From: Amphibalanus amphitrite
Taxonomy: Eukaryota > Arthropoda > Thecostraca > Balanomorpha > Balanidae
Reading direction: 5' to 3'
Assembly: GCF_019059575.1 (NCBI RefSeq)
Contig: NW_024881783.1
Location: 372,001-436,000, forward strand
Length of the DNA: 64,000 bases
The translations under genes and the position numbers were made by a program. Positions within the stretch are counted from its first letter, which is position 1; each line of letters starts with the position of its first letter. A model generated the notes under the pieces. The model did no database searches, was not told where the DNA came from, and was given only the letters and a program-made list of their open reading frames with translations. Below, piece by piece: positions 25,505 through 61,305 of this stretch.

Positions 25505-28500
25505 GTAATGATTACTGGTAATTTACCCCTTGAGACTCCCATTATATATCATTTATAATTTAAATATAGACAGGTAAATTGCATTGATGTGTAGATATGT
25601 ATTTATTTTGCATCTATTGGCTTCTCCATCCTCATCATTTCTTTAAGTGTATTTAGACCACCAATGTGGACTGTGCAGTGGGCTGGAGGTGGCGGCACCG
25701 ACTGACGGCGGCGCCGGTCAGCGGCCGGCGCCCGTGTTTCCCGCCCCGATCCGCCTCCACAGCTGGTACTCGGAGACAGAGGACGAGGACGATAGCGGCG
25801 AGGCGCCGGTGACCGCCGCGCGGCCCCTGCCCGACGAGATCAGCGTCAACAACCTCCTGGACGACGTGGCCAGCTGGTCGGCCGACGAGACGGACGTCGA
25901 CGGGCCGCCGCCGCTGCTGCCGGAGACGGCGCCGCCAGAGGGGGAGCCGACCCGCGGCCAGACCCCGGACACCGCCGGCACCCCCGCCAGTCCCGATCGG
26001 AGCAGTCAGGTGGGTCCCGGTATTGGATTTATAGGGGTGGGGCTGGTTGGGGGATGGGTCGGACTGGGTGGGAAGACTGAGAACTGAATGATACTTTTTA
26101 GAACGCGGTCGGTCGGTCAGCGACGACCGACTGCACTTAGTGGGATGGTGGGGACTGGGTAGAGTTGTGCGGAACAGTGTACATACAGCAGGTAGTATCG
26201 AACTACCAGGCACTGGTCTGCTTAGTGTATCAGCTCATCTCATGGGCTTGCTGGATCGCTTAAAGGTTCTACCTATATGTTCAGTAATTATGTCATGTAA
26301 GGTTAATAATGGGGAAAACCGGCATTCGATTTTCGAAAGTTCTAATGCAAAAGTTCGATCTCCATCATTTAATTGTACGAGGATGTAGGTGCTAATTTAC
26401 AAACGGTGTCAGTATGGCTAACCTTCTAGTTCGACTTACTTTACAAAATTTCGTCTTATTTGAACATGGCTTTGACCTATGTGAATGATTTAGCCCATCC
26501 AAATCAGGCAACGTATTTCATATGTCATGCTCTGTCTCGCCAAATATTATCCATCCCTTCATCATCGCTCTAATCTCCCATCGCACCGTGCCAGCCGCTA
26601 TGTTTTTGGATCCAGTTTTGCAGCGTAGTTTAAATCTCATACTGATACCGCTGCGACTATGATCTCAGTGTCGCCGTGAGAAACTCGGTCGCTGCGTGAT
26701 GCCATCACGACGGCACTCGCCGCTATCAGCTGGCTGGTCGGGCTGTGGGAACGGGTGTTGCTCGGTCCACTCGGCGTGCTCCAGTGCAGCCCGATTGGTT
26801 TCGGCCATCTGGTGCTGCCAGTAAATCGGCCGGGCTCCTGGAACCGGCTGTGATGTCGTCACTGCTGTTAGTGGTGAACAGATGGTGGTGTTGATGTTGA
26901 GTGTCAACACCAAGGTGACACAGAGTGTCAACATTCCGTGGCATCAGAGAATGGGCCGCGCAGCAGCACGGTGTAACGGTGTGTGGTTGGTCACACATCA
27001 TTGGCTATTAGTGAAACAGGTTTCTCACGGTAATCCGTTAACGTCAATTCAAGCATGACCCAAAACACCTATCAATTACTCACCATCGATTCTGCTAGCG
27101 ATCTATCGACGGCTGGTTTCTCATCTGCTCCGAACATCTCCCGTCTCCTGACATAATTGCGACTGTTGTTTAAGATTCGCCGTGCAACATAAGCCATCTG
27201 AGCCTGATCAGGTGCAAGGCACCACTTTCTGCGCGCCATCCGCCGTGATATCCGACGCTACAAAGACATTCTCGGAGGTGGTGGCCCGTGTTGACGCCTC
27301 TTTGCCTGGCCGGCCGGCGGCTGTTTGGTCTCGGAGAGGCTCCAGAGGCGCGCGGAGAGATCGGCGTGCAGTCGTGCTCCGCGTCAATCCTTCCGATCGG
27401 GACGATAAACCCGTCACGAGTCGAGAACTGGAGCCAAAGCGGCATACATACGTGTCCTGTTGATGTCCCGGGGCATGGCTAGGCTACACGTTGTTAGATA
27501 ATGACAAGCGTGTTATCGAGGTGTTAAAGGACCTTGTTTGCTGACCTAAGCCACCTTAAGCCTCGTGATAGCATTATTTCCACTGTTCGATAGGATAGGC
27601 CTAGTGGCGCTATACATGACCTGTGTGTTATATAATAATTGGGTGAAGAAGAACGGCCGCGTGGCGGTCTTGGTCACGCTTGCATGTTTTTTTTTTTTCT
27701 AAGGGCCTGTGAGCTGGCGTATGATGGACATAGCTCGCGTCCAAAAAGGCAGTAGGTAGGTAGGTACCGATAGTTCTCCTCAATCTACAGATACTTATTT
27801 CTAGTTGCGTAGCTGAGCGGGCTGGCAATTCTATCGGTGGATATATGACAAAGCAAACACATGTGGTGGTGCTGTGACTGCTCACAGGAGAGCAGGCTGT
27901 ATGCTTTTCTTCGTATCGCCGATCCAGTTGCAAGCATGCTGCTAACTTGCTAGTATGTTCGATGTTCATCGATCCAAAAACAATCACGCACCCCCTTCGC
28001 CAACCCGTGAGCTACAGCTCAGCTTACACCTCCCGTCTCTCCCGTTCACAGGCTCCGGATAGCGGTTACAGTGACGGTAGCAGCAGCGTGCCAACGCTGT
28101 CTCGACAACGGGCGGCACTCGCCGATGGCTACCCGGGTAGCGTTGGACGTACAAACTGCTACCCTGGCAGCGGCGGTACAAATTGCTACCCGGGTAGCGG
28201 GGGTACAACCGGCTACCCAGGCAGCGGAGGTGGAGGCACAAATTGCTACCCAGGTAGCGTTGGACGCACAACCGGCTACCCAGGCAGCGGAGGTGGAGGC
28301 ACAAATTGCTACCCAGGTAGCGTTGGTCGCACAATCGGCTACCCTGGCGGCGGTGGCGGCGGCGGCGGCGGCTCGGACGGCGGCGGAGAGCTGGCCGGCC
28401 TGCTGCGCGGAGTGCTCGACTCGGTCGGCCGGCCGCGACTCTCTGGCTCTGTCAGTGTCGCCAGCAGCAAGGATGTCGTTATCGGAAATGTCATCCACCT

Positions 28501-31500
28501 GCACACGGACGGCTTGATGAGCTCGCCACCGGCACCCAGTCCCAGACAGGTGCGTACGAAGGGGAACGGGGACGGGGAAGGGCCGTTTACAGGACAATTT
28601 GCCGAACTGCATTTTGCCGAATGCTTATTCGCCGAATGCCAATATGTCGAATGCATTTTGCCGACGTGTCTTTTTGCCGACGTGTCAAAAGGGCGAAGTG
28701 CTAAAAGTCGAAATGCAATTTGCCGACATGCCTTTAACTTTTTTGCCGACGTGCAATTTGCCGAAAAGTCAATTAGTCGAAATGTCAATTCACCGAAATG
28801 CTTATTTGCCGAAATGCTAATTAGTCGAAATGTAAATTTGCCGAAATGTCAATTTGCCGAAATGTCAATTTGCCGAAATGTCAATTTGCCGAAATGTCAA
28901 TTATTCGCCAAAATGCTAATTTGCCGAAATGCTAATTAGTCGAAATGTCAATTTGCCGAAATGCCAATTAGTCGAAATTAATCTAACCTAACCTGACCCG
29001 TAAGTATTAACTTTAGGACCGACTCGCTTTTCAAAGTTAGAAACCCACTTACATGTCACCAAAGTATAAGAAAAACATAACTAAACCTTACCTTACCTGA
29101 CGTACTGATTTTTGCCTACCCGTGGATAAGGAAGAAGATACATTAACCCGCGAGTTGCTGGGGGGGGGGCGTTAAACGCCCCCACTTTTTTCGCCGGGCC
29201 ATAGCGCCGCAGGCGCTATGGCCCGGCAAAAAACGGCGCGCCGCAGGCGCGCCAAATTTTGGGTACCTGTAGAGAATTAATTGAAGTTTATTTTGACAAA
29301 GTTTCAAAAAAATCGGTCGGAAAATTTTTGAGATATCGAGGTTTTAGTGACGTCATGATTTCTGAGTTTTCGACCAAAAACGGCATATGTTCAAAAAATC
29401 ATATAAAATCACATAATAGACATACAGACATGCCATAAACGCCATTAGACTGCCAATACCATGAGCAATCAAATGGCTATCTTCAATTATTGATTATCGT
29501 TCCGCATTTTCCAAAATCCTGAACTGAATCTTGGCAATTTTTCGTGACCATGATAAATGAATTTCTTAAATTGAACTTTTTGAGCCAAACACGTACACAT
29601 ATGACAAAATGAATGTCACCATCGTGTTCTACGCCCCAAATTACCTATAAAACATGTGTCACAGGCTGCGAATATCAGTTTTTATTTTCGGGGATATGTG
29701 CCTACCCGGTTGACCTGACCTTGACCCTGACCTATGCTTGACTGACCCCTATATGGGGCTGACACTCTTGTAGGCCTTATAAGATGGATTGTGCACCGTT
29801 TTGACAGAGTTTATGGCGAGAGGCGCCCATTGCGAAGTCCTGAAGTCCATGCTACTGAAAGCCCGATTTCAGGTGTTTGACCTGACCTTGACCCGACCTG
29901 TGACCTCAAAATTTAACTTTAAAGTACTCATCTGAAGCGTCTCGTCGCGCTCTTTCTTTGCCGCCTCGTGCGTTTCGCTGCGCCTATTGGTTCTCGAGCT
30001 ATCGGCTGGGGGCGTTTAACGCCCCCCCCCCCCAGCAAACGGTGGGTGGCGAAATACCCCAGCAACTGCCGGGTTAATAGATTGCAGACAATGATAAGTC
30101 AATTATTTTTAGGTTAAGTGGTTGTGCATCAGGCTTCAGGCTACACAACAATTTAACCCTCACCGGACCTATTGGTTTTCTACATACGCGCCGGCCGAGG
30201 TGGTAATTGCTGAAAGGCGATTTGCCGAATGCATTTCGCCGAATGTCATTTTGCCGAAGTGCTTTTTGCCGACCTGTCAAAAAGTCGAAATGACATTTGC
30301 CGAAATGCTTATTAGTCGTTTCGCCCCTGATGGAGCTGGCGCGTCGCGGAAAAAACGAGCGTGTGCGCCGTTACGAGACGCAGAGATTGATACCCGATTT
30401 TAAGGTCCTACGTCAACCGGTGACCTCTGAGGTCAGGTCAAGTGCCCCAAGGTACGGTTCAGTTTTTGGCGAATAACTTCGCCACAAAGGGCCGCAGGGC
30501 CGCGATTTTGGCAGCATCGTGTTTGCCTTGCTTAGGCGCGTCAAATGATATAATTTTTAATTGGGTCAGGTCAACTTAGGGTGTTGACCTCAGGTCACGG
30601 TCAGGTCAGCACCCCCAGGTCATGAAGTTGGTGGAAAGAGGTCATGTCGCATATCATTCGATTCGGCAGGTATTCTCGAGTCCATTGGTGGCTTTCCCGA
30701 CTCGCTAGCTCAATTTGATCGGGAGTTATTGACGAAAAACGAATGTGACCTTGATGACGTCATAAATGACGTCACGCAAGGTCAACATTGCAAAAGTTAC
30801 GCATCTAACCTTGCAAGGAGTGCGTCAAATCACGATTCTGTGTGCTTGAGATAGTTAGAGGTCGTTCCCGGCGCCAGAATAGCAGTTTTCATTTTTCTTC
30901 TTGACTTAGATGTAATGGTGATTGGTGGGGTCACGAAAATGACCTGACCTCGTCCTCAAATAACCTTTAGGAAAATCTGAGATATACAAGCTGTGAGACT
31001 CGTAATGGATATTAGGTCCTGCAAGTTTCATTTCCCTGTGAAAGCTCCTCTGGCCGTGAGGGCGTTGCGAAGTTGCGACATCTGAAGACCGTGCAGAGGT
31101 TCTTTTATGACGTCATAGGTCGGTGACCTGACCTGACCCGAAAATGCGGTTGATGTAAAAAGATCCGGCTTGAATCAAAGGTCAGCTATGCAAAGTTTCA
31201 GCTCTATCGCCAGCGTGTTCGGAGCTATCGCGAAAAAAACCTATGGGGGTGTGGCACCCGCACCCCCCTCGGCCGGCGAGGGTTAACCTAAAAATATTTG
31301 ACTTACCTTTGCCTGTAATCTCTCCCAAGGCATTGCCTTCGGCACTGCACTGCTTCGCCACGAGCAATTTGATGTTTATTTCCACATGGTATTGGTGCTT
31401 TTAAACTTGCTTGTGCCATGAATAATTATTAGTTATGGAATCAGGAGGTCAAAGGATATCATGTGATTTGCTTCTTACTTGGGGATTGCACCAAAAGTAA

Positions 31501-34500
31501 ATTGGTGATCGGTCCTAAGTAAATAAACACCACCTAAACTAACCTAACCTAACCAAGGTTCGCAGATTGACATTTCGGCAAAGTTATATTTCAACTAATT
31601 GACATTTCGGCAAACTGCCAATTCGGCAGATTGACATTTCGGCAAATTGACATTTCGGCAAATTGACATTTCGGCAAATTGACATTTCGGCAAATTGACA
31701 TATCGACTAATTTACATTTCGACTAATCGACATTTTGGCAAATCGCATTTCGGCAAATTTACATTTCGACTAATAGGCATTTCGGCAAATTGGCACTTCG
31801 GCAAAAAGGCATGTCGGCAAATGGCATTTGGACTTTTAGCATTTCGACTTTTTGACACGTCGGCAAAAAGCACATCGGCAAAATGACATTCGGCGAAATG
31901 CATTCGGCAAAATGACATTCGGTAAATCGCCTTTCGGCAATTTGTCCGGACACCGAAGGGCCGGGTGGCGGCCTTTTGATATGTGAGAGCTGCTTTGGTA
32001 TATTGTGGGTAGTGTGCAGTATTATATAATACTGAACGAGGCCGGTGTAAATAAATTTTCAAGACCGAGGTCCTTACTGGATTTTTGAACGAGGCCGAAG
32101 GCCGAGTTCAAAAATCAGTAAGGACTGAGGTCTTGAAAATTTATCACCGGCCGAGTTTGGTATGTATTTTACTGTATGCCAACGATGCCAACGATAAATT
32201 TATTTTCTGGACCGAAGCTCTTAGCCGACTTAGGAACGAGAACATCCCAAAATGTTGGCTTAAGTGCATTCTGGTAATGCATTTTTGACCGTGGTCAATT
32301 TGCTTACACCAGTTATTACCACACCCCTCTGGCTAATGTATTTGAATAGACCAGGCATACAGTAAAATAAAACATCGCACCTTCAACAGGCTTGTGAATG
32401 CGTGCATGGTGTAAGTTGTAACACAATATCCTTAATTTAGTGGGTAGTCTCCGATGAATGATTTTCTCAACATCGCCGCATGGTATATTTGGCTGCCTAC
32501 TGAACGCTTACATAGGTATATCGTCCTATTCTATGTTTACGTTCATGCCACGCTGCGACCACGCTTTGCAGTCTGCATCTTCAGTAAACATTCGTCGGTA
32601 GCCCGACGACCCCTCCCCCAATCTGCTCTCTCTAGCCCCTCTGCCCCTCCCGCAGCCTCCCGCGGTGGACGAGTCAACCCCTCTGCCGGAGTCCACGGCG
32701 CGTACTGTGGCGTACCTGCGCTCTCGGTGGCTGGACACACTGACCCGACTGCAGCCGATCCCGTGGTGTCCCGAGTTCAGACTGCCGCTCCAGGAGTACT
32801 ACATCGCTCTGTCGCTGCTGGTTAATGACATGCACGGCGACCGGCTGCGGCAGCCGGTGGAAATGGACCAGCTGCTGGCGCCGCTCACGGTAAGGGAACA
32901 GGTGTTTATCCTGCTCACGGTACGGCACTGTAATAGGACGTCGCACCCTGGCTGGAGCGATATTATATTGCTAGTATCTGAGATGTCTTACGGCTTACGC
33001 TTACCGCTGCTTTCTGCTGCTGAGGTGCTACTGTCTGAGAATGCGGTGTGACGAGGGAGACTGACGGGGTTCACGCGTTGCGTGTCCGGGATCTCGCCAG
33101 CGCCGCGGTCGGAACGGGCGCGCTTGGCACCCGGGGGCGAGTGTAAACATGGCTGAAAGTGAACCGTGAAGTCACCAAACGTGGGGAGAGCTCGTTAAAG
33201 TCAGTGCACCGTTATGTCGGACGTTTATAGCTCTAGGTACGGAAATCAGACGGACTTGTGGGCTAGCATTGGCGGATAATGAAGGCCCTTCTGGTACGAA
33301 CTGCACCCTGAATCCTGGCTTCTTGTGTTATGGTGCTGGCGATTCCCAATGATAACACCTAGCACGTTTCGTGTGTATTGTTAGGACTTTTGGCGAGCGC
33401 TTCAGCCCATGTAGTCAATCAATCGCTCTGATACCTACCTATCTTGCAAAGTGTCGACGTGAATACCAAAGTATACCTACGCAACAAAATCGACTTACGA
33501 AGTCGACGTGAATACTGGGGCAGTTTTGTATTTTATTGACGAAACAGGCAACTCCGCCGCAGTGCACCTTGGCTATTCTGTGTTTTAACCGTGATGGTAG
33601 AGGCTTCAGAGGCTATTCGTGACATGACAAGTTCGATATCAGGGCGTCGGCGCTCGTTTCCCTGACGTTGGTCTGCGTGTTATCGCCCCCACCAGCCGGG
33701 GGAGACGGGTCTACCCGGCGCCCGGCCGCGCCGCATCCTGGTCGAGGGTGAACCCGGCTTCGGCAAGAGCACGCTGATGCTCAAACTGCTGCACGACTGG
33801 GCGTGCGACGACGCGCCGCAGTATCTGCGCTACTTCCATGTGAGTATCGACTATCGTGGGGGGGGGGGGGCTGATTTCTCATTTAAAGACCATGGGCGCT
33901 GGTTTTGGCGTATTCTTCATTTCGCGGTAACGTTGTTGCTCAGTTTCACTCACTATGTCGTTCACTTGATATACAGACTACGTCTTCATGTAACATTTAC
34001 CGAAACTATCAATGTAATGTATCATGGGACATTGATGGACCCTATCAACTGCTTTTTGTTACTGTGCTATCTGTGCATGCTGCGCTGAATTCAACTGCTG
34101 ATACCTGGCTCCTCCCTCCCTTTTGCTCGGCAGTTCGCCTTTCTGATTCCGCTGTGGGAGTTCAACGGCTCTCTGTACAACTTCCTGCACCGGGAGCTGC
34201 TGCCGCGGCACATTGTCGGCCGTGAGCGTATGGAGCAGCTGTGGCAGTACCTGGTCGAGCACGAGGAGCGCGTGCTCTTCCTGCTGGACGGCCTGGACGA
34301 ACTGCGCGACGAGCAGCGGCCGGCCGTCACCGAACTGCTCGCCGGAAAGATGTTCCTCAACAGTACCGTGGTGGTTACATCGCGACCCAGCCACGTGGCC
34401 GAGGCGCTGCCCTGGGTGCACCGGCGGCTGGTTATACAGGGCTTCGAGCGGCCCAGCGTGGGCCGCTACGTGCGCCAATACTTCAGCTGTGTGCGCCGGC

Positions 34501-37500
34501 CGGACGGGGTGGCCGGCCTGGAGGAGCAACTGCGCCGGCGGCCGGCGCTGGCCGAGCTGGCGCGCTGTCCGCTCCTCTGCCTGCTGCTCTGTGTCGTGTA
34601 CGAGGAGTGTGACGCGGCGTTCCCGGCCAGCGAGGCGCTGCTCTACCGGTCGCTGTTCGAGTGTCTGATCCGGCGCAGTCTGCTGCGGCGCGGCCAGCGC
34701 CTGGAGGAGGACGGCGCCCTGCCGGCCCGCTGTCTGCGCCTGCTGCGCCAGTTCGGCCGGCTGGCCGTCCAGCTGTGCCTGGAGGAGCGCGTGTGCTACA
34801 GCCTGCAGGAAATCACCAACCACGTCTCCGACCGGGAGCTACTCGAGTGGGGATTCCTGACGCGCGTAGTCAGCGTCTCAAAAGTGCAGAAGCGCGAGCT
34901 GTACCAACCGCTGCACCGGACCTTCACCGACTTTCTGGCGGCGTTCTTCCTGTCCTCGCTGCCGGACCAGCGCGCGCTGCGGCACGAGATGGCACCTGTG
35001 CTAGTGCGTCTGGAAAGGCTGGACGGCCAGCCCAAAGCGTCACATGGGGTGATGGTGATGCTGCGTTATCTGGTGGCACTACTCAACGACGGCCAGCGGC
35101 GCGCCTACCAGGCGCTCGAGCTGCTGGCGCCGCTGTGTCTCGCGCCGCGCGCTCTTTTCACACTGCTCCGTGAGGCCGGCGACGAGCCGCTCGCCCAGAA
35201 GGCGGCTGCGCTCTGTCTGGCCGGCCAGCAGCACGTGATGGTGCAGACGGACCAGGCGGCCGAGCTGCGCGGCTGGACGGCCGTGCTGCGCAACAGCGCG
35301 CACCAGGAGAGCCTGGAGGTGGTTTTCCGGCCGGGTGGCGTGGTGCCGGCGCTCGAGCCGCTGCTGCGCGCCGCCGCCTCCCGGCTGCGCGCCGTCAAAC
35401 TCTGCACCCTGCTCGGTACGGACATGACCAGTGAGGAACTGACAGCGATGGGCCGGTACGTGGCACAGCTGCTCGAACCCGACGCCAAGGCGCGCTATCG
35501 ACTCAGCGAGCTGGAGATCGTGCTGCAGAACCTGGACGACAGCGACTTCGGCCGGTTCCAGCCGCTCGTGTCGGCGCTGTGCGACGCGCTGCCGCAGGTG
35601 CCCCGCTCGGCTCGCCTGAAGCTGGTGCTCGATCTGGACATGTCGGCCGAGCAGATGGCGCAGCTGTCGGCGGCGGTGCGGCGCGCGCCGGCCGTGGCTG
35701 TGCTGAGCATCTCACACCTTGTCTCGTTCGACGGCTCGATGCAGGCACTGGCCGAGCTGGTGCGCGCCGCGCCGCTCTCCGCGCTCACACTCTGCTCCGT
35801 GTGGCGACCCGACACGCACGCCACCAGTGCGCTCGACTTTTTCCGCTCGGAGCACGCGCTGCACGCGGCCGGCGGCAGCGCCACCAGTCTGAGCCGGCCG
35901 GACGCCAGTCTGCGGCGCAACTACAGCCTGGGCCGCGGCTCGGCCGGCGGCGCCGCCGGACTGCAGTTGGCGCACCGACTGCGGCTCGGCCGCGAGCCCA
36001 TCTGCGACCCGGCGGCGCACGGCGGCGGCTTCCACCGGCTATTCTGCGCGCTGCGCACGCCCGGCTGTCTGCTGACCTCGCTGCGGCTGACGCGCTGCCG
36101 GCTCACCGGCTCCGACCTGGCCTGTCTGGGCGAGAGCCTGCGCGCCACCACGCACCTCACCAACCTGACGGTGCAGGACGTGTCGCAGGCCACCGACCTG
36201 GTGCCGCTGCTGTTCGCGCTGCAGGAGAACAGCCGGCTGCAGCTGCTCGACCTGGACTCCAGCACCATGGTCATCGAGGACGCCGAGTTCATCCTGCTCT
36301 GCGAGTCGCTCGTCTGCTGCACCAGCCTGATGCTGCTCGACCTCTCACATTGGACCTTCAGACTGGAGGTCAGTGGCTAGGATCTGTGAATCTTCATCAG
36401 GTACTGATCAACTCGGCTATCTAAAAATATTTTTATCCCGAATTCTAGCATGCGTATTCTTCCACGGCGTATGCCATGTTACTCAAGTTCCATACCCAGC
36501 TGAACCCAGCTTTACGCTTTGTTTTTGCCAGTTCCCCCGTCTCACACCATATCTCTCTCATGTATGCCGCCCTGTCGCGTCCGTCCGACACCCGTTTCCG
36601 TTCGTGTTTACCTTCTCCCTGTCTGTTCGTTCGCCCTCCCGTCTTCTCTGGCGCGACGCCCCGTGTCCCTGCAGTCGCTTTGTCCGTCTTTTTGTCCGCC
36701 TTTATGTGGGACGGAGCTTGTCCGCCTTTATGTCTGACGCTCCGTCCCTTATTCCGGCAGTGGGAGCAGTCGCTGCTGGCGGCCGTGCAGCTGCTGCAGC
36801 AGACCGGGCTGATGCAGCTCGAACTGGACGGCTGCTCGGTGTCGGTGACGCTGCCCGACGGCCGGCAGCCGACGGTGGCGCAGCTGGTGCGCCGCGTGCC
36901 GGCCGCCCGCTCCCGGCTCACCACGCTCGGCCTGCGCTGCGTCTCGGTGACCGTGAACGAGGGCCGGCCGCTGACGGGCGCCGAGCTGATGCCGCTCGTG
37001 CAGCGCCTCTTCCCGCGCGTCTCTGAGCTCAACCTGGCGGTGAAGGTGGGCGGCGCGCCGCTCGGCGACGCCGCCCTGCTGCGCTTCTTCCAGCAGTGCG
37101 CCGAGAGCGGCCAGCTGCGACAGCTGCGACTCAGCAGCTGGCAGCTGCAGGTGGCCGCGCCGCGCGCCACGCTCGAGGCCAAGCTGCGGCCGCTGCTGCG
37201 CCGGCTGACGCTCGGGCAGATCTACCTGAGTGGCGTGAAGGCGACGGACGCCACGGAGGCGCGCTGCGAGCACCTGCTGGCCGTCTCGGTGATCGCCCAC
37301 TCGCGGTGTCTGCGGCTGCTCAGTCTGGGCGGCATGACGTCCCTGCAGCCGAGTCAGGCCACCGCCATCGGCCAGGGTATCCGGGACCGGTTCGCCGGCG
37401 AGCAGCTGATGCTCTACACCAGCGGATGGCCGTACGCGGCGCTGCGCGCTCTTCGCTCCGTCGTGGAGGAGAGTGACCGGCTGATGGCCTCCTATGCCGG

Positions 37501-37558
37501 CGGACTGACCGGGCTTTACGTCATCACACGCACAGACAAACCAGGGAAGGGCGCGTAG
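25453..37558 (+). CDS. NACHT-LRR (NLR-type) receptor with a possible RHIM-like motif
   Basis: The model joins 25453-25504, 25657-26009, 28052-28549, 32656-32889, 33696-33839, 34134-36368 and 36761-37558, giving about 1,437 aa. Residues 19-135 are acidic and disordered; about 145-215 are Gly/Tyr/Cys repeats. VVIGNVIHLH (277-286) resembles the RHIM amyloid core. Residues 302-379 are helical pre-NACHT sequence. NACHT follows, with Walker A GEPGFGKST (397-405), Walker B VLFLLDGLDE (474-483) and the VVVTSRPS sensor strand (about 505-512). From about 870 to the C-terminus there are degenerate leucine-rich repeats. Every junction from exon 2 on is phase 0 with GT-AG borders, so the assembly is firm; the first exon is less certain. 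Known NACHT proteins are ATP-dependent oligomerising cytosolic sensors in immunity or cell death. No transmembrane segment is seen. The ligand is unknown. Insects largely lack such receptors. Confidence 0.85.
25657..26009 (+). CDS. NLR exon 2, acidic N-terminal region
   Basis: A strong pyrimidine tract ending GTGTATTTAG precedes the exon, and the donor is AGTCAG|GTGGGT. It encodes a Pro/Ala/Asp-rich region with the acidic run SETEDEDDSGE and the sequence ADETDVDG, whose DETD (25884-25895) fits an executioner-caspase-type site. There is no in-frame ATG, so an upstream exon is required. Confidence 0.75.
26665..26934 (-). CDS. Small antisense open frame with a signal-peptide-like start
   Basis: An 89-codon ATG-to-TGA frame runs antisense within the second intron of the NLR gene. 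It begins MLTLCVTLVLTLNI...CS, which could be a signal peptide, and continues with a hydrophilic Pro/Gln/Glu-rich region. No homology is recognised, and the ATG overlaps a short GTGTCAACA duplication. It may be a small secreted protein gene or chance. Confidence 0.22.
   Translation of the reverse strand: MLTLCVTLVLTLNINTTICSPLTAVTTSQPVPGARPIYWQHQMAETNRAALEHAEWTEQHPFPQPDQPADSGECRRDGITQRPSFSRRH
28052..28549 (+). CDS. NLR exon 3, Gly-rich repeats and RHIM-like motif
   Basis: The acceptor is CTCCCGTTCACAG|GCT and the donor is CCCAGACAG|GTGCGT. The first half encodes seven to eight copies of an (N/T)(C/G)YPGS(V/G)G-type unit followed by a Gly run. The second half contains LAGLLRGVLDSV and then SSKDVVIGNVIHLHTDG (motif bases 28475-28504), just before a proline-rich end. 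The exon is phase 0 at both ends, 166 codons. Confidence 0.78.
28583..28985. repeat. Left arm of an inverted array (TTGCCGAAATGTCAA unit)
   Basis: Irregular tandem copies of TTGCCGAAATGTCAA/TTAGTCGAAATGCTA begin 34 bases after the donor of NLR exon 3. The same words in reverse complement form the array at 31560-31945, and a short piece sits at 30215-30320. The pair looks like the arms of a foldback-type element. Confidence 0.75.
29143..30077. mobile_element. TTAA-flanked MITE (CCCGCGAGTTGCTGGGGG ends)
   Basis: It runs from TTAA-CCCGCGAGTTGCTGGGG to CCCCAGCAACTGCCGGG-TTAA, 935 bases. Subterminal GCGTTAAACGC palindromes lie in G/C runs at both ends, and two perfect hairpins lie at 29196-29251. 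It carries TGACCT-rich sequence and no gene, and lies in the third NLR intron. Confidence 0.75.
29196..29251. repeat. Two adjacent perfect hairpins
   Basis: GCCGGGCCATAGCGCC pairs with its exact complement across a GCA loop, and GGCGCGCC pairs with GGCGCGCC across a second GCA loop. They are subterminal in the MITE. Confidence 0.85.
30153..31286. mobile_element. TTAA-flanked MITE (CCCTC(A/G)CCGG ends)
   Basis: It runs from TTAA-CCCTCACCGG to CCGGCGAGGG-TTAA, about 1.13 kb. It shares TTTCGCCCCTGA(T)(C/G)GAG, the GACGTCAT pairs and many TGACCT/AGGTCA words with the copies at 3907 and 21435. A GCCGAATG array piece (30215-30320) is embedded near its left end. No coding capacity; it lies in the third NLR intron. 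Confidence 0.7.
31560..31945. repeat. Right arm of the inverted array (TTGACATTTCGGCAA unit)
   Basis: Tandem TTGACATTTCGGCAAA units are the reverse complement of the unit at 28583-28985. Between the arms lie two complete TTAA MITEs. Short open frames across it are artefacts. Confidence 0.78.
32034..32157. mobile_element. Small hairpin MITE upstream of NLR exon 4
   Basis: An imperfect inverted repeat of about 60 bases per arm folds around GAGGCCGAAGGCC; the arms contain AAATTTTCAAGACC and GTCCTTACTG. There is no coding capacity. It lies about 500 bases before the exon 4 acceptor. Confidence 0.65.
32656..32889 (+). CDS. NLR exon 4, pre-NACHT helical segment
   Basis: The acceptor CCCCTCCCGCAG|CCT follows a long C/T tract and the donor is CTCACG|GTAAGG. 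It encodes TVAYLRSRWLDTLTRL, then PIPWCPEFRLPLQEYYI and a further helix. This matches the helical linker (YL...L..L..PW......Y) found just before NACHT in many invertebrate NLRs. Phase 0, 78 codons. Confidence 0.78.
33696..33839 (+). CDS. NLR exon 5, NACHT Walker A (P-loop)
   Basis: The acceptor is CGCCCCCACCAG|CCG and the donor is TTCCAT|GTGAGT. It encodes RRILVEGEPGFGKSTLM, a full NACHT P-loop with the invariant Lys and Ser/Thr, then LKLLHDWA and the strand LRYFH. Phase 0, 48 codons. Confidence 0.88.
34134..36368 (+). CDS. NLR exon 6, rest of NACHT, winged-helix region and first leucine-rich repeats
   Basis: The acceptor is TTTTGCTCGGCAG|TTC and the donor is CTGGAG|GTCAGT. This 745-codon exon encodes FAFLIPLWEFNGSLYNF, the Walker B strand LFLLDGLDEL, VVVTSRPSHV, the NACHT-associated helices (ARCPLLCLLLCVVY; HRTFTDFLAAFFLSSL, as in the family's F-x-E-F/L-x-A-x-F motif) and the start of the leucine-rich repeats (LTSLRLTRCRLTGSDL; LLDLDSSTM). 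Base composition is strongly G/C-biased, like the other genes here. Confidence 0.9.
36761..37558 (+). CDS. NLR exon 7, terminal leucine-rich repeats
   Basis: The acceptor is CTTATTCCGGCAG|TGG, in phase 0. It continues the repeats (LMQLELDGCSV, LTTLGLRCVSV, LRQLRLSSWQL, LRLLSLGGM) and ends at TAG (37556-37558) after a basic tail TDKPGKGA. Confidence 0.85.
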   Translation, partial: WEQSLLAAVQLLQQTGLMQLELDGCSVSVTLPDGRQPTVAQLVRRVPAARSRLTTLGLRCVSVTVNEGRPLTGAELMPLVQRLFPRVSELNLAVKVGGAPLGDAALLRFFQQCAESGQLRQLRLSSWQLQVAAPRATLEAKLRPLLRRLTLGQIYLSGVKATDATEARCEHLLAVSVIAHSRCLRLLSLGGMTSLQPSQATAIGQGIRDRFAGEQLMLYTSGWPYAALRALRSVVEESDRLMASYAGGLTGLYVITRTDKPGKGA

Positions 37559-46500: not shown

Positions 46501-49500
46501 TATATCAAATGTACCTATCTATATCTTTAAAAGTCTTAAGACGGTCATCTGTCAAATAAACGGCCCAAACGCATAGGCGGCGGAACGGGGAGGGCACCGG
46601 GGCACCGTGCCCCGCTCCCTTTGATTTCGACATTTTAACATTAGCCCTATGGGCGTTGAATGGAAAGAATGGGACCAAAAGTCGGCAGTGCCCCCCCCCC
46701 CCCCGCCGCTACTGCCCAAAAGTCCGGATGGTGCTTTTGATAAATAATTGACAGAAATTGTTGTGGAGACATTAGTTTGGCATCGTTGCGTTTTTTGACA
46801 GTCGCGTAAAATGATAAACGTTTTTGTTAGACAAAGGTAAAATTGGTATTGACAAGCTCAGGTCACGGTCAGGTCTAACCCAGCAAGGTAGGGAAACTGT
46901 TGGGGTAAAGGTCATGCTGTATAACATTTGATTTAGGCCGAACACATTTTAAGTTATTGGTCTATTTTTCGACTCACTTATCTACTCACTTTGGTCGGAG
47001 TTATTGACCGAAAAAAAATATGATGACCTCACAGTCACATACCTAACCGCATTGACAAAATCAAAAAGAGACTAGAGTACCTACCTAAGTTATGAAATGA
47101 AGACTCAGAGAGCTTGAAGTAGGGCATTACGTCATCTCACGCTACAAATAAGCACGGTTTCTGTTTCATATCCCGCGCCCTGCCGCGCTTGTCGAACGTG
47201 TCCTGCTTGGGGTCGGAATCACCAAAGACCACCCCAAAACGGCTATTGAATAGAATATGTGCGACACGTAGACACTGGTGACTGGGTTACGCCGGCCCGC
47301 CAGGCGTCCGCTAAACTACATATAAGCCCAAGGCCCTTGTACGGCCGGGCATGGCATAATTCCTAGCCACTGGCGGTGCATAATTATGATGAAGGAAATT
47401 TCTCTTTGACTACCAAATTAAATTTGGAAGCAATAAGCTACAACGAAGGCTGCGCAGTTTCGACATTTACGGTGAGAAACATCATGCTCAAGCTCGCGTG
47501 ACACCAATCGGTTACCTAGCAACCCGCTGTTATAGGCGGAAACCAAGCATGGCGTTTATGCTGGCGGTAGTCCCACGTTGCTGCGCAACTTGCGTGAGAA
47601 ACTTCTGATTGGTATGTCGAACACCATTTTACTCCTTTGCTGCACTTTGATGGACAGAGCTGTGTAAGGGGCCTGCAGTTGCACTAGTGCGAAGTAAAAG
47701 CAAGATCAAAATTATATCTCATTTGGTCAGTAATCTGCAGTTCAGGACTTGCTGCTGCAAATAACAGATAGCCCGCTGTGATATGCATTTTGTGCCTAGT
47801 TGCCCCTGTTAGTTCTCACTATGTTATCTACCTACCTACTTTGCTAGCCTTTGAAGCTGTATTTTCGGCTTTTTCCACCCTGAGTTTCCAGATATTCAAT
47901 TGCAATGTATCCTCCTAGGTTTTCTGTATTTGTAGAGCAGACGTCACACAAAGGCTATCCAACCGAGGAGAGGTGCTGTTGGTTTGTAGGTTGTAGTGTA
48001 GGTTCGTAGGTTTGTAGGTTGTAGGTTATTAGGTTGTATGTTATTCAGTTGTAGGCTAGGTCAGGTCAGGTTAGGTTTAAGTTTAGGTTGTTAGAAAGAA
48101 GCTCCTTTGGGTATAGCATTAGATTAGTGCCTCTCCTTGGTTGGAAAACCTTCGTGTGATGTCTGTTCTACTATTACCGGTTTTCCTCAGCATCTCCAGA
48201 ACTGCAATCACTGTTACGATTAGAGGAAGCGTGATTTGGAATAGAATTGGGCTTCAAAAGCTTCTTTGGCTTGGCCAAAATAACAGTTGCTGAAGAACAG
48301 CAGCTTTTACATCTATCATACCATGCTCCACAATTGAAGATAATCAAAACATTCCTCGAGAATCAGAATTTGAGAATTCTGTAACAGTTATGGGAGTTTT
48401 AGTTGACTAGTATGATGCCTATAGTGCTGGGTGCTGTTCTGTAGTTGCTAATTTTCATCAGCAATCAGCATGCTGGAGATTTTCTGATATGAGAAAGTGC
48501 ATATGTGGCATTTCTTGGCCTCTCATTGGTGAACTGCACAGACTATATGATTTTGACCAATGAGAAGCTAAAAAGTAACAGCAGCTTGCTGATAAAATGT
48601 AACAACCAAGCAGAGTCCTCGCTTCCAAAACCCTGATCTGCCATGTTACCACTAAATTATGTTGGTTACCACTAAATTATGTTGGTGTCCTAAACCTCTG
48701 ATTACCTACTACAGCATATCAAAAAAATAAATAAGTTATTAAATACCTAACCTTGCAATGCAAGACACAAGCAGCCAGGTCAAAGTCATAAAATGAACTA
48801 TTTCCCATCGACATTCAAGCTACCTCATTTTTCACGACCAAATCACTGAAACCCCCGTCCTCCGGTAAAAAATGAGCTACTTTCTATCCCTATTCCCTAT
48901 TCCTTGTCCTCTGTTCAAGGGTAGTCCGGCAGTGGGCGATAGAAGCTTAGACACCCCCCCCCCCCCATCCCCGGAGTCGCCGGGGCCGCGGCGCTGCTCG
49001 GTTCGACACCTGATATCGGCTCCGACCTGCACCTGGCTGGGCTCGTTAGGCGGCAACTCATCACCACTCGCAGCCGGCGCCGCGCTCTCCAATCAGCACC
49101 GCTTAGCGCATCGATCTCGCTAATGGCCGCAGCGAGCGCAGATGTCACACCAGATGTCCGTCCCGCCCCGTGATGCCGGCAGGTCCGTGCTGCAGGCTGT
49201 CAGACGAGGACGGGAACCCGACTGACGCTGCTGGAGGCCGGGCTGCTGGGGGACAGAGCTAGGGATCCTTACTGGCCACTGAGCTGTTATCAGTGGAAGA
49301 CGTTTATAGATCCTCATCTTTCCGCTGTGATCTGACGCCATGTGGTGGCTGCTGTGGCCGGCGGTGGCGGCGGTGGCGCTGCTGCTCGCCGGGACACTGC
49401 TGGGCCGCCTGCTGCCGCGGAGGCACACAGCGCTGGCCGGCCGGCACGTGCTCGTCACCGGCGGCTCCAGCGGCATCGGCCGCAGCCTGGCCGTGCTCTG

Positions 49501-52500
49501 CGCCAAACAGGGCGCGCACGTCACTATCGTGGCGCGGGACGAGGCGCGCCTGGAGGAGACCAAGCGCGAGATCCAGGCGGCGGTGGAGGGCGCGCGCGTC
49601 CAGTGTCTGTCCCTGGACGTGGCCAAGGACGCGGCGGCGGTCAGGGACGCCATATTCCGCGCCGAACAGGAGCTGGGCCCGCTCTACTTTGTCGCCTGCT
49701 GCGCTGGATTCGCGCTGGCGCAGCGCTGCGAGGAGATGCCGATTGCCACGCATCGGCGGCTGATGGAGGTCAACTACTTCGGGGTGCTGAACGTGCTGCA
49801 CGCGGCCGTGCCCGGTCTGAAGGCGCGCCGGGAGGGCCGTATCGCCGTGGTGACCTCACTGGGCGGCGTGGTCGGCCTGTGGGGCTTCACCGGCTACTGC
49901 GCCTCTAAGTATGCGCTGGTGGGCCTGTCGCACACGCTGCTGCAGGAGCTGAAGCCATACGGCGTGGGCGTGACGCTGTGCTACCCGCCCGACACGGACA
50001 CACCCGGCTTCGAGCAGGAGAACCGCACCAAGCCAGAGGAGACGCGGCTCATCTGCGAGACCGCCGGCCTCTTCCCGCCCGAGAAGGTGGCCCAGAAGCT
50101 GCTGGACGACGTCATGGCCGGCACCATCAACAGCACGGTGGGCACTGAGGGCATGCTGATGACGACTGTCGGCCTCGGCATGGGCCCCGTGGGCTCGGCC
50201 GGCCAGCTGGCGCGCGAAGTGCTGCTGATGCCCGTCTTCAGGCTGGTCGTCGCCTTCTTCCACAGGTCCTGGGACGGCATCGTCAGAGACTGCATGCGCA
50301 AGAGGGATGAGAGCAAGAAGAGCGAGTGATATGGGGCCTTGATGGGTGTGTAGTTAATCAAACGGTACATAATGAGGCGCTTGCAGTTGCACTGCGGGGG
50401 ATGCGCTTTTGCGTTTCGTTATCACGCCTTCGGAGGGCATGGTTGATAACTATTTTGGTGCCGTTGTTGCCATAATCTTACTCAGTGGGTACGCTTTGTG
50501 GTTATGCTTAAGTGATATTTGTATGCATAATGGATCCTATTTTGTTGTACTTACGTAGAAAGCGGTAATCGGTTTTGATATAACCTCTGGTCTGGGGTTG
50601 GAATAAAGACGCACTGGCCTGCTGGCAGTTATCCACCTGAAGTGCTTGTGTTTCGAGTGATGTATGTAGATGAATGACTATTATGATCAGGGACATTTCA
50701 TATTGTTCGGCATTGCCACTGCTAAGTCAACAGAAATTATTTATGACAATCTTACACAATCAGATTACAGCCTGTCGATCCTTTTCTCCAGTGTGGTTAG
50801 GAAAATCAAATCATGCCCATGGGCATTGGGTAATGGGTAGCAACCTGTCCATCGTCCCTGACCCTTTCACTGTGAAAGTCCTCCAACGATCGCGCGGCCC
50901 GAAACCGACAGAGCACAATTACCGTGAAGCCGGGACGATCATCGTTACGCTGCGGGCGGTGCCACCTCAGGACCTAGGGATTTTTACACGGGAGCCCGGC
51001 TCGTTACGGGGATTTCGCGAGGATGGGACAGTAATACGCCGCAGTTAGGAGTAAGAACGTCGGAGCCGCAATCGTCGCCGACGCCGCCGTCGGATGCGGG
51101 AAACTGAGCGGTCTGGGAGATTGCGGTCGACGCTAACCGCTGAAGCAGGGAGGTTGTTTCAAAAATACAATGTGTGCACTGTGCATTGTGCAAGCATTTC
51201 TGCGTTCTCAGTAGATTGAACGGACCGCGTCTTCATATGTGTTGACACATATCAGAATAATGCCGAAGACGGTGCACAATGCATGTTACGCCACATGGAT
51301 AACAGTACGAAAAACCGTTTTTGTCAATTTCATTTTCCGTTCCTTATCCAGCTGAAGGACTACAAAACGACCTTGGTCTTGAAAATTCGTCTCTCTAACG
51401 CTATCATTAACAGGAAACCGACTGAAGATTGAGCTTCAGTGGCGCAAACCACGAAAGGCCTGTTCACTGTTCATTCTTCAAATCTAATCCACATCAAGGA
51501 AGGTCGGTATCGCTAATTTTCCGCTAAATTAGAAGGCTAATTTCCTTGCGCCAAAGATCTTGAAATAAGATAATTACGTACCGCTATGCCTATTAGATAC
51601 AGGTAATTGGCTTTCCGTGGAGTTGATCAGTGATGGCGAGAAGCCCGAGTTACAGGAGCCCCCTCGTTCTTGTCCATCAGGTCAAACGTCGTAGGACGGT
51701 TTGAGTTTTTTTTTTTGTCTGGGCATTTTATCCGAGTATGCCAAGGATGTACTAACTGAACTTTTTCGTAAAAGGTATAACTTATTAGCCACTAAGGTGA
51801 TTATCATAAAAAATGACGTAGAGCCCGTCCCCGTTGCCTTGCGTAGTGCACATTGCAGTTGCACACATTGTTTGTTTTGTTGGGAGCAAGCTTTTTCGGT
51901 CCATTGCAGAGCAAACGAGCAGGGATGTAGGAATGATAGGATACGGCGTAGACATTGAGCTGTGCGGGACACTGACCGTGAGCCGCGGAGGCGAGACCGT
52001 CCGGTGGGACCCGACCTCATCCACCGGTTGCCAGGTGGGGTGACCACCAGCCCAGAGAGGGAGCGTTAGGGGGACGTTGATAGGTTTGTCCTGGGGATGG
52101 CGAGGACGGACGATGGTCGTGCGCACTATGCGCCCAGCCTTTAGTCGGACAGCCTGCGCGTCGCCGCGTCCGCTATATGGCATAATTATAAACGCCCGGC
52201 CCCGGACTGGTATGCTGTACCACACAGCCGCAAGGTTTTGCCGCTCTCGCTAGATGGCAGTGGTAGTAAGCGCCTGGACCGGTATGCTGTGCCGTACTAC
52301 CGCGAGCTTATACCACTCCCGCTAGATGGCAGGGCTAGTATGCGCCTGGACTGATATGCTGTGCCGCATAGCAGCAAGCTTATACCGCTCCCGCTAGATG
52401 GCGGCGGTGATAAGCGCCTGGACTGGTATGCTGTGCCGTACTACCGCGAGCTTATACCGCTCCCGCTAGATGGCAGGGCTATTATGCGCCTGGACTGATA

Positions 52501-60291: not shown

Positions 60292-60300
60292 TTAGGGCGG
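59985..60300. repeat. Degenerate tandem repeat containing CACCTTAGG (stop plus splice donor on the minus strand)
   Basis: Units of roughly 60-70 bases share CCTACCTGAGCCC, AGCAGTCT(G/C)CCGTCGCC and (TA)TCACCTTAGG. The CACCTTAGG word at 60289-60296 covers the stop and following donor of the zinc-finger gene, so the repeat begins at that exon end and extends downstream. Confidence 0.6.
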
Positions 60301-61305
60301 CGGTCGGGTGGCCGGCAGCTGCTGCGCTGCCACATCCTCGTCACAGATGCCCAGCATCTTCAGCTCGTCGGCGTCGGCGCGTTCGTCGGCGTCCGGCAGG
60401 TCGATGTCCAGCAGGTCGAGCACATCGGATACCGGGTTCTCGTCGTCGCTGATGGCTTCCGTCTGCGGCGGCGCGAGCAGAACAGCGGGAGCGGTGGGGG
60501 TGGGGGCAGGGGCGGCGGCGGGGGCGGGGGTAGTACCCGGTGGCGGACAGGCCGGCCGAGGGATGGTCGCCAGGACCTCTTTTCTGTTGGCCAGCTCCAG
60601 AGTGGCCAGCTCAGACTTGGACAGCTGGCCGGGAGGCTGCGGCGGCTCGGCAGCCGGCTTCGCGGGCTCCGGCTTCTTGACACGCAGCTTTGGCAGCTTG
60701 CCGACGATGGGGACGGCCTTCTTTTTTACGGCAGCGGCGCCGGCCGCCGGCTTCTGGGACAGTTTCTCGGGCAGGGTGATCTTCACCTTGGCCGCTGCGG
60801 CCGCCTCCGCCTCTGGCAGGTTACTGACCGTCGGCACCGGACCCTCGGGCGCCTTCTCAACCTTCCCCTTCCGCGCCTCAGCCTCTTTCTCCTTCTTGGT
60901 CGCCGCCTGTTTGACCTCCTTCTCGGCCGTCTCCACCTTCGCCTTCTTGGACTCCTGTTCGGCGGCCAGGTTGGCCTGCACCTTCCGCTTCAGCTGGCCC
61001 ATCTCGTCGGGCGCTGGTGCCGACGAGGTCAGCAGGTTCAGCTTGATGCCGGCCTTCTTGGTGACGGCCGGCGGTGTGACGGCCACCGCGGCACCGGCAG
61101 CGGCGCCCACCTCGTCAGTCACGTCCTGCACGGCGCCCTCGCTCTGGCGGCGCATCCGCTCGTTGAGCCGGTCGCCGCGCTTCTGTGCCTCCTCCTCGCG
61201 CCGCTGGCGGATGCGCTGCTCCTGTTCCTCGGCACACCGGACCAGGAGCCGGCTGCGCGTCTCGCCCACCACAGCGTGGTAGCTCGGGTTGTTCTCCAGG
61301 TACTC
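60292..61305 (-). CDS. Zinc-finger gene, terminal coding exon
   Basis: The acceptor is CCCTCGCTCGGCAG|GAG. It has 337 codons to TAA: EYLENNPSYHAVVGETRSRL, a charged coiled region, Ala/Lys/Glu-rich and Pro/Ala-rich low complexity, and an acidic end with DDENPVSDVLDLLDIDL. The stop is followed at once by AAG|GTGAGA-like sequence, a possible 3' UTR donor. Confidence 0.75.
   Translation of the reverse strand, partial: EYLENNPSYHAVVGETRSRLLVRCAEEQEQRIRQRREEEAQKRGDRLNERMRRQSEGAVQDVTDEVGAAAGAAVAVTPPAVTKKAGIKLNLLTSSAPAPDEMGQLKRKVQANLAAEQESKKAKVETAEKEVKQAATKKEKEAEARKGKVEKAPEGPVPTVSNLPEAEAAAAAKVKITLPEKLSQKPAAGAAAVKKKAVPIVGKLPKLRVKKPEPAKPAAEPPQPPGQLSKSELATLELANRKEVLATIPRPACPPPGTTPAPAAAPAPTPTAPAVLLAPPQTEAISDDENPVSDVLDLLDIDLPDADERADADELKMLGICDEDVAAQQLPATRPPP

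Follow-up and report, generated by a model that had tools for sequence, protein, structure and literature searches.

The closest described counterpart of the gene analysed here is LvNLRC from Litopenaeus vannamei, an arthropod NOD-like receptor (NLR) of the NLRC type. The available portion of its description gives it 1,485 amino acids, a long N-terminal region without a known domain, a NACHT domain positioned near residue 350, and leucine-rich repeats (LRRs; PMC12370184). Our gene lies on the forward strand of the window, by which we mean the whole stretch of 64,000 nucleotides of genomic DNA that was analysed; its exons 2 to 7 encode a protein of at least 1,412 amino acids that can be likened to LvNLRC by description in its length, its N-terminal region and the position of its NACHT domain, and in C-terminal repeats that are putative LRRs here. 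Unlike the window protein, in which a first-pass annotation had recognised an amyloid motif resembling the RIP homotypic interaction motif (RHIM) N-terminal to the NACHT domain, LvNLRC is reported to act through its NACHT and LRR regions, and the words RHIM and amyloid are absent from the main text of its description (PMC12370184). We find that the peptide in question, VVIGNVIHLH, is indeed encoded in the receptor gene and that its RHIM likeness is at chance level.

Both the class of the receptor and the arthropod nature of its host had been read from the letters of the window, and both assignments held. Exon 5 (33696-33839), which encodes the NACHT P-loop, and exon 6 (34134-36368), which encodes the remaining NACHT domain, a helical region and the first repeats, match the Pfam family NACHT (PF05729; 8.6e-07 and 8.1e-15, respectively) above its curated cut-off, the domain starting after residue 354 in a numbering that begins with exon 2. 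When exon 6 was compared with the PDB by sequence, NLRC4 was found (2.7e-09). The single-sequence structural model of exon 6 was poor (mean predicted local distance difference test score [pLDDT], 42.6) and displayed an alternating helix/strand pattern; a Foldseek search with this poor model was headed by NLRC4, NLRP-containing complexes and NOD2, and no TM-score among the matches listed exceeded 0.34. Pfam gave no LRR match in the protein, no death-fold domain was recognised in its N-terminal part from exon 2 onward, and no relatives of exon 6 were confirmed in the viral and prokaryote collections (viral_contigs, three pattern stretches; genome_contigs, 19). Judged by these comparisons, the gene encodes a NACHT receptor of the NLR type; two genes of this kind were found in the genome. 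The arthropod host is borne out by the cuticle family Chitin_bind_4, with 150 scored matches in the genome and none in 14 control genomes.

Canonical RHIMs, such as those of RIPK1, RIPK3, ZBP1 and TRIF (PF12721), are built around a hydrophobic-x-hydrophobic-Gly core, and their downstream Asn is placed otherwise than directly after the Gly. The same type of core is present in the peptide SSKDVVIGNVIHLHTDG (28463-28513), whose tetrad VVIG differs from the canonical motif in that it has no Gln, its place being taken by Val as the first-pass annotation had remarked, in that it yields no Pfam match, and in that an Asn follows directly after the Gly. The interval originally assigned to the motif (28448-28515) holds this peptide in frame and starts five codons ahead of it (SVSVA); its surroundings are as described, with eight YPG units on the N-terminal side and a Ser/Pro stretch that runs up to the donor site of exon 3 behind it. 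The cryptic RHIMs (cRHIMs) of insects can dispense with the Gln and keep the V and the G of the core, with VHIG found in mosquito PGRP-LE and IMD, according to the accessible part of PMC9531809. Both there and in our protein, an immune receptor carries near its N-terminal side a [VI]-x-[IV]-G tetrad that lacks the Gln; however, the receptor there is a peptidoglycan recognition protein (PGRP) and here an NLR, the second residue of the tetrad is His there and Val here, and the window motif is known from sequence alone. Fungal NLRs with a PP motif (PNT1/HELLP), described as RHIM-like in excerpts of PMC7885112 and PMC9815663, likewise carry a short amyloid-like motif N-terminal to a nucleotide-binding domain. 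Unlike in these systems, no neighbouring gene with a shared motif was seen in the window, where one further six-frame [VI]x[VI]GN site lies within a frame of 44 amino acids, and the fungal core NxGxQxGxN is absent from the 1,412 residues, as are [VI]Q[VI]G and [VI]x[VI]GxxN. As stated in the consulted sections of a survey from 2022, NLR-associated amyloid signalling appears to be restricted to fungi and bacteria (PMC9815663), and our literature search, which covered titles and abstract openings and for the most part did not reach subscription papers, returned no animal NLR with a RHIM.

The protein of 1,412 residues has two instances of the pattern [VI]x[VI]G; its shuffles have 0.83 on average, of which the N-terminal 354 residues account for 0.34, and 26% of the shuffles of exon 3 alone hold it. 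Six-frame stretches of at least 30 residues, which add up to 78,872 residues across the window, contain 60 such tetrads; because the tetrad is this frequent, its occurrences near Death-domain loci were not taken as evidence. Neither of the two marks of a canonical RHIM, the V/I-Q-V/I-G tetrad and a PF12721 match, was found, whereas the V and G that insect cRHIMs keep, the Gln being dispensable in them, are there in V-V-I-G, a likeness that taken alone is at chance level.

Profile and similarity searches gave no further sign of a RHIM. No Pfam family, RHIM included, matched the translation of exon 3 or its last 36 amino acids at E up to 10 in a search whose HMMER filters drop many weak matches. 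A genome-wide scan with the Pfam RHIM family produced two matches, neither of them in the window gene. The first (22.9 bits, E 0.09), just above the curated cut-off, falls in a frame of 14 amino acids with a stop, and the second (E 6) lies in another copy of that repeated stretch; both were taken as chance. Four matches at E up to 10 resulted when the genome was searched with the motif stretch. Two of these are the window gene and its second copy; the other two (E 4.6 and 5.2) have no tetrad in the aligned part. The match at E 5.2, on contig C23 (SGAVAVASTRDNLLGSLLH), was rejected: it lacks the tetrad, and its 3.1 kb hold no further NLR match better than E 0.79. A second protein with the motif that could act as a partner was not recognisable in the genome, the motif part of exon 3 had no confirmed relatives in viral_contigs (217 pattern stretches), and its sequence matches in the PDB were chance-like (two at E up to 10, the best at 0.41). 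Given the missing Pfam match, the chance-level tetrad, the lack of a partner stretch in the genome and a tetrad region in the paralogue that cannot be aligned with it, an identification as a RHIM or cRHIM is not borne out, sound though the observation of the peptide in a receptor gene is.

On balance, we consider it probable that the gene encodes an NLRC-type NACHT-LRR receptor with a low-complexity arm in which the beta-prone VVIG stretch is perhaps incidental. From what is known of the family, the LRR region of such a protein would sense the ligand and the NACHT domain would oligomerise. The arm would consist of acidic, Gly/Tyr/Pro-rich and Pro-rich segments, and VVIGNVIHLH would most likely provide a weak contact, presumably to a binding partner, or a linker, rather than a templating amyloid. 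Several points weigh against this interpretation. Hydrophobic-x-hydrophobic-Gly-Asn, a pattern to which the Asn was added post hoc, occurs in just 1.1% of 2,000 shuffles of the protein; the VVIG stretch is the 10-mer with the highest beta-propensity of the arm and ranks third among the 1,403 of the protein; and the equivalent exon of the paralogue also has exactly one tetrad, VHVG, which is close to the mosquito VHIG. Moreover, neither exon 1 nor a start codon was found in a codon-bias scan of the window, so that the protein may possess an N-terminal signalling domain. As to aggregation, five hot spots are predicted in the arm; the VVIG stretch is one of these, and a stronger one is located in exon 4. 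The structure prediction that had been proposed as a further check did yield a short strand over VVI, besides a helix, in the tail of exon 3, but at low confidence (mean pLDDT 63) and in a form that is uninformative on fibrils.

The six exons (2 to 7), all on the forward strand, join in phase into 1,412 residues and a stop codon, counted from exon 2. Exon 2 (25679-26009; 110 full codons; start in phase 2, end in phase 0) has a good donor, a weak acceptor (69th percentile of all AG dinucleotides) and an uncertain 5' border. Exon 3 (28052-28549; 166 codons; phase 0-0) is the low-complexity repeat exon with the RHIM-like peptide; 51% of its residues are Pro, Gly or Ser, and the motif is located in an N-terminal low-complexity arm. 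The pre-NACHT region is encoded by exon 4 (32656-32889; 78 codons), which is supported by its splice sites and by its homology to an exon of the paralogue, and the C-terminal repeats by exon 7 (36761-37558), which is open to a TAG stop codon in matching phase.

The phases of exon 3 and of the NACHT exons are compatible, from which we infer their splicing to each other. The junction of exon 2 with exon 4 would also be in phase 0, so that skipping exon 3 would keep the frame, and exon 3 might be skipped or lie outside the NACHT transcript altogether. Its codon bias is weak: the log-odds per codon are -0.27, whereas they amount to 0.52-0.65 for exons 2, 4 and 5 (0.65 for exon 2) and to 0.89-0.95 for the training set itself, exons 6 and 7. 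The intron behind it measures 4.1 kb and contains a foldback-like element. Against skipping stand the strong splice sites of exon 3. Its acceptor (after ...cccgttcacag) and its donor (CAG followed by gtgcgt, at 28549/28550) rank at the 99.5 and 99.6 percentiles among all AG and GT dinucleotides of the window when scored with a simple matrix, by which the donor reaches 9.2 and the best internal GT of the exon at most 4.8. The pattern of differences among its repeats also favours exon 3 as coding. Tandem Repeats Finder reports an array of YPGS/Gly-rich repeats (28128-28353; period 63, 3.7 copies), and seven of the eight YPG units, whose Tyr codons are at 28130-28340, read YPGS. In the frame of exon 3, codon pairs with a single difference between repeat units comprise 39 synonymous and 31 non-synonymous ones, compared with 3:40 and 18:44 in the two shifted frames, and 52 of the 99 pairwise differences between the units fall on third codon positions; the units are not independent of each other, since the array has the longer period of 63 bases. 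These differences support the reading frame of exon 3. Since exon 3 is identical in the second copy, and the paralogue has an exon with YPGS repeats at the corresponding position, we regard skipping of exon 3, or its exclusion from the transcript, as very improbable. The foldback-like element of intron 3 (28592-31947) is about 3.35 kb long; at its ends, a 15/16-base unit (TTTGCCGAAATGTCAA) is repeated in arrays that are inverted relative to each other.

Disorder of the region around the motif, which the first-pass annotation had assumed, was confirmed in part: by its charge-hydropathy score, exon 2 counts as disordered (-0.14), and exons 3 and 4 do not (+0.11 and +0.13; +0.25 for the part of exon 3 behind the repeats). 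For all the Pro, Gly and Ser of exon 3, this speaks against a motif simply embedded in disorder. Exon 2 is strongly acidic, with a net charge of -17 in 110 amino acids, and contains a Leu/Trp patch, NNLLDDVASW. In the NLR transactivator CIITA, an acidic region and a Pro/Ser/Thr-rich region precede the NACHT-LRR part. The arm of the window protein might by analogy be a region for transcription activation or for the control of degradation, in which VVIG would be incidental; the beginning of exon 3 (28052-28087; APDSGYSDGSSS) bears what we take to be a resemblance to an IkappaB-type phosphodegron. We think such a role of the arm improbable.

A genome search with exon 6 led to three loci: exon 6 itself, a copy on contig C1053 and one paralogue on contig C259. 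Six matches were obtained with the NACHT family; for C463, C26 and C52, the stretches of about 3.4 kb surrounding the match were compared with the window protein by tblastn and showed no similarity at E 0.001. The C1053 copy is identical to the window gene in exon 3 (498 of 498 bases) and in exons 5 and 6, differs from it at 5, 1 and 13 bases in exons 2, 4 and 7, respectively, and shows 99.2% and 98.6% identity over 7.2 and 6.7 kb that include introns, intron 3 being about 1 kb longer in C1053. Since this near-identity extends to the introns and other contigs, for example C8 and C391, also seem to be paired, we read the copy as probably the other haplotype and hence as no test of conservation.

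The paralogue is encoded on the minus strand of C259 (locus L009). Its NACHT exon (6550-4781) is homologous to exon 6, the identity being 30% for residues 2-543 and 38% for residues 621-745. In front of it lies a homologue of exon 4 (alignment score 41, reached by one of 2,000 shuffles) and, before that, a long exon (about 8919-7799), which comprises three YPGS units, then MQAHVQNSNHVHVGPKVFDQRQIHVDRV, and then an Asn/His/Gln-rich tail of about 80 residues. Its similarity to exon 3, at a score reached by 43 of 2,000 shuffles, runs through low-complexity repeats only. VHVG, downstream of the YPGS repeats, is the sole [VI]x[VI]G of the long exon, in whose shuffles this tetrad turns up in 15% and the more specific [VI]H[VI]G, which was settled on post hoc, in 0.6%. 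The local alignment of the VVIG and VHVG stretches scores 19, with a shuffle mean of 22.5 and 1,746 of 2,000 shuffles reaching 19, and VHVG is no aggregation hot spot.

As an amyloid candidate, the window motif may be surpassed by the unusual Asn/His/Gln-rich tail in front of the paralogue's NACHT domain (L009, 7799-8160, minus strand; VHVGPKVFDQRQIHVDRV...NIRIDRIENKTEHIQWNNTEILHNTGGAIYANRLIL). Nothing else in the genome resembles this tail below E 0.3 and it has no Pfam match; the long exon as a whole has a single, sub-threshold Pfam match (AflR, E 0.93). The sequence matches of the tail in the PDB were chance-like (three, the best at 0.81). A match to the tail on contig C99 (E 0.34) was rejected, as no RHIM-like protein is located there.

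The two receptors have also to be viewed in the light of the IMD pathway. Daphnia and most of the malacostracans examined have no PGRPs and retain Imd; in crustaceans without PGRPs, the step before IMD is an open question, and a protein of unknown identity has been posited for it, according to the sections available of PMC4833078 and PMC5437397. In the 807.55-Mb genome studied here, the PGRP domain Amidase_2 had no match at E 0.1 or better, in a search that could miss a PGRP split by introns and that does find short exons of other families. This absence fits the reports just cited; should the host have an IMD pathway, it may have to do without the usual receptor. One could envisage that oligomerisation of the NACHT domain gathers the arms, so that a cross-beta seed arises from VVIGNVIHLH, or in the paralogue from VHVG, and templates the cRHIM of IMD or of another adaptor, the NLR taking the place that PGRP-LC and PGRP-LE have in the fly. 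The Gln-less cRHIMs of insects and the PP motifs of fungal NLRs would be precedents, and in both NLRs of this type found in the genome the tetrad is situated C-terminal to YPGS repeats and one exon before the pre-NACHT exon, with the His-containing form of the paralogue rare among shuffles under its post hoc pattern. Such a cryptic RHIM is nevertheless unlikely, given the chance-level tetrad of the window protein, the failure of the two stretches to align better than shuffles, the lack of a hot spot at VHVG and of a recognisable partner motif, and the fact that none of the 19 Death-domain matches of the genome (E up to 1; none on C286, C1053 or C259) was assignable to IMD. These matches presumably represent UNC5-type, Pelle/MyD88-like and other proteins. 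Were the host a chelicerate, IMD would be expected to be lacking altogether, as the consulted part of PMC5437397 indicates.

That an arthropod without PGRPs uses its two NLRC-type NLRs, through cryptic RHIMs in their low-complexity arms, as the missing receptors that activate IMD by amyloid templating is a long shot; if true, it would add to the fungal and bacterial NLR-amyloid pathways an animal one of similar kind. The tetrad common to both NLRs and the missing PGRP make the amyloid reading worthy of a bench test, not of a claim. Should the RHIM reading turn out wrong, the genome would still offer a simple test case, with two NLRs, a search that turned up no PGRP, and VVIG and VHVG as defined candidate peptides.

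Elsewhere in the window, an apparently intronless gene at 49331-50329 encodes a short-chain dehydrogenase (Pfam adh_short, 7.1e-44), which we assume might be a 3-ketodihydrosphingosine reductase. A long open frame on the minus strand (60292-61404) has a strong codon bias and an Ala/Lys/Pro-rich product without a Pfam match at E 0.01. A tandem array at 52204-53029 consists of 11 copies of a 72-base unit (24 codons) and has long open frames on both strands.

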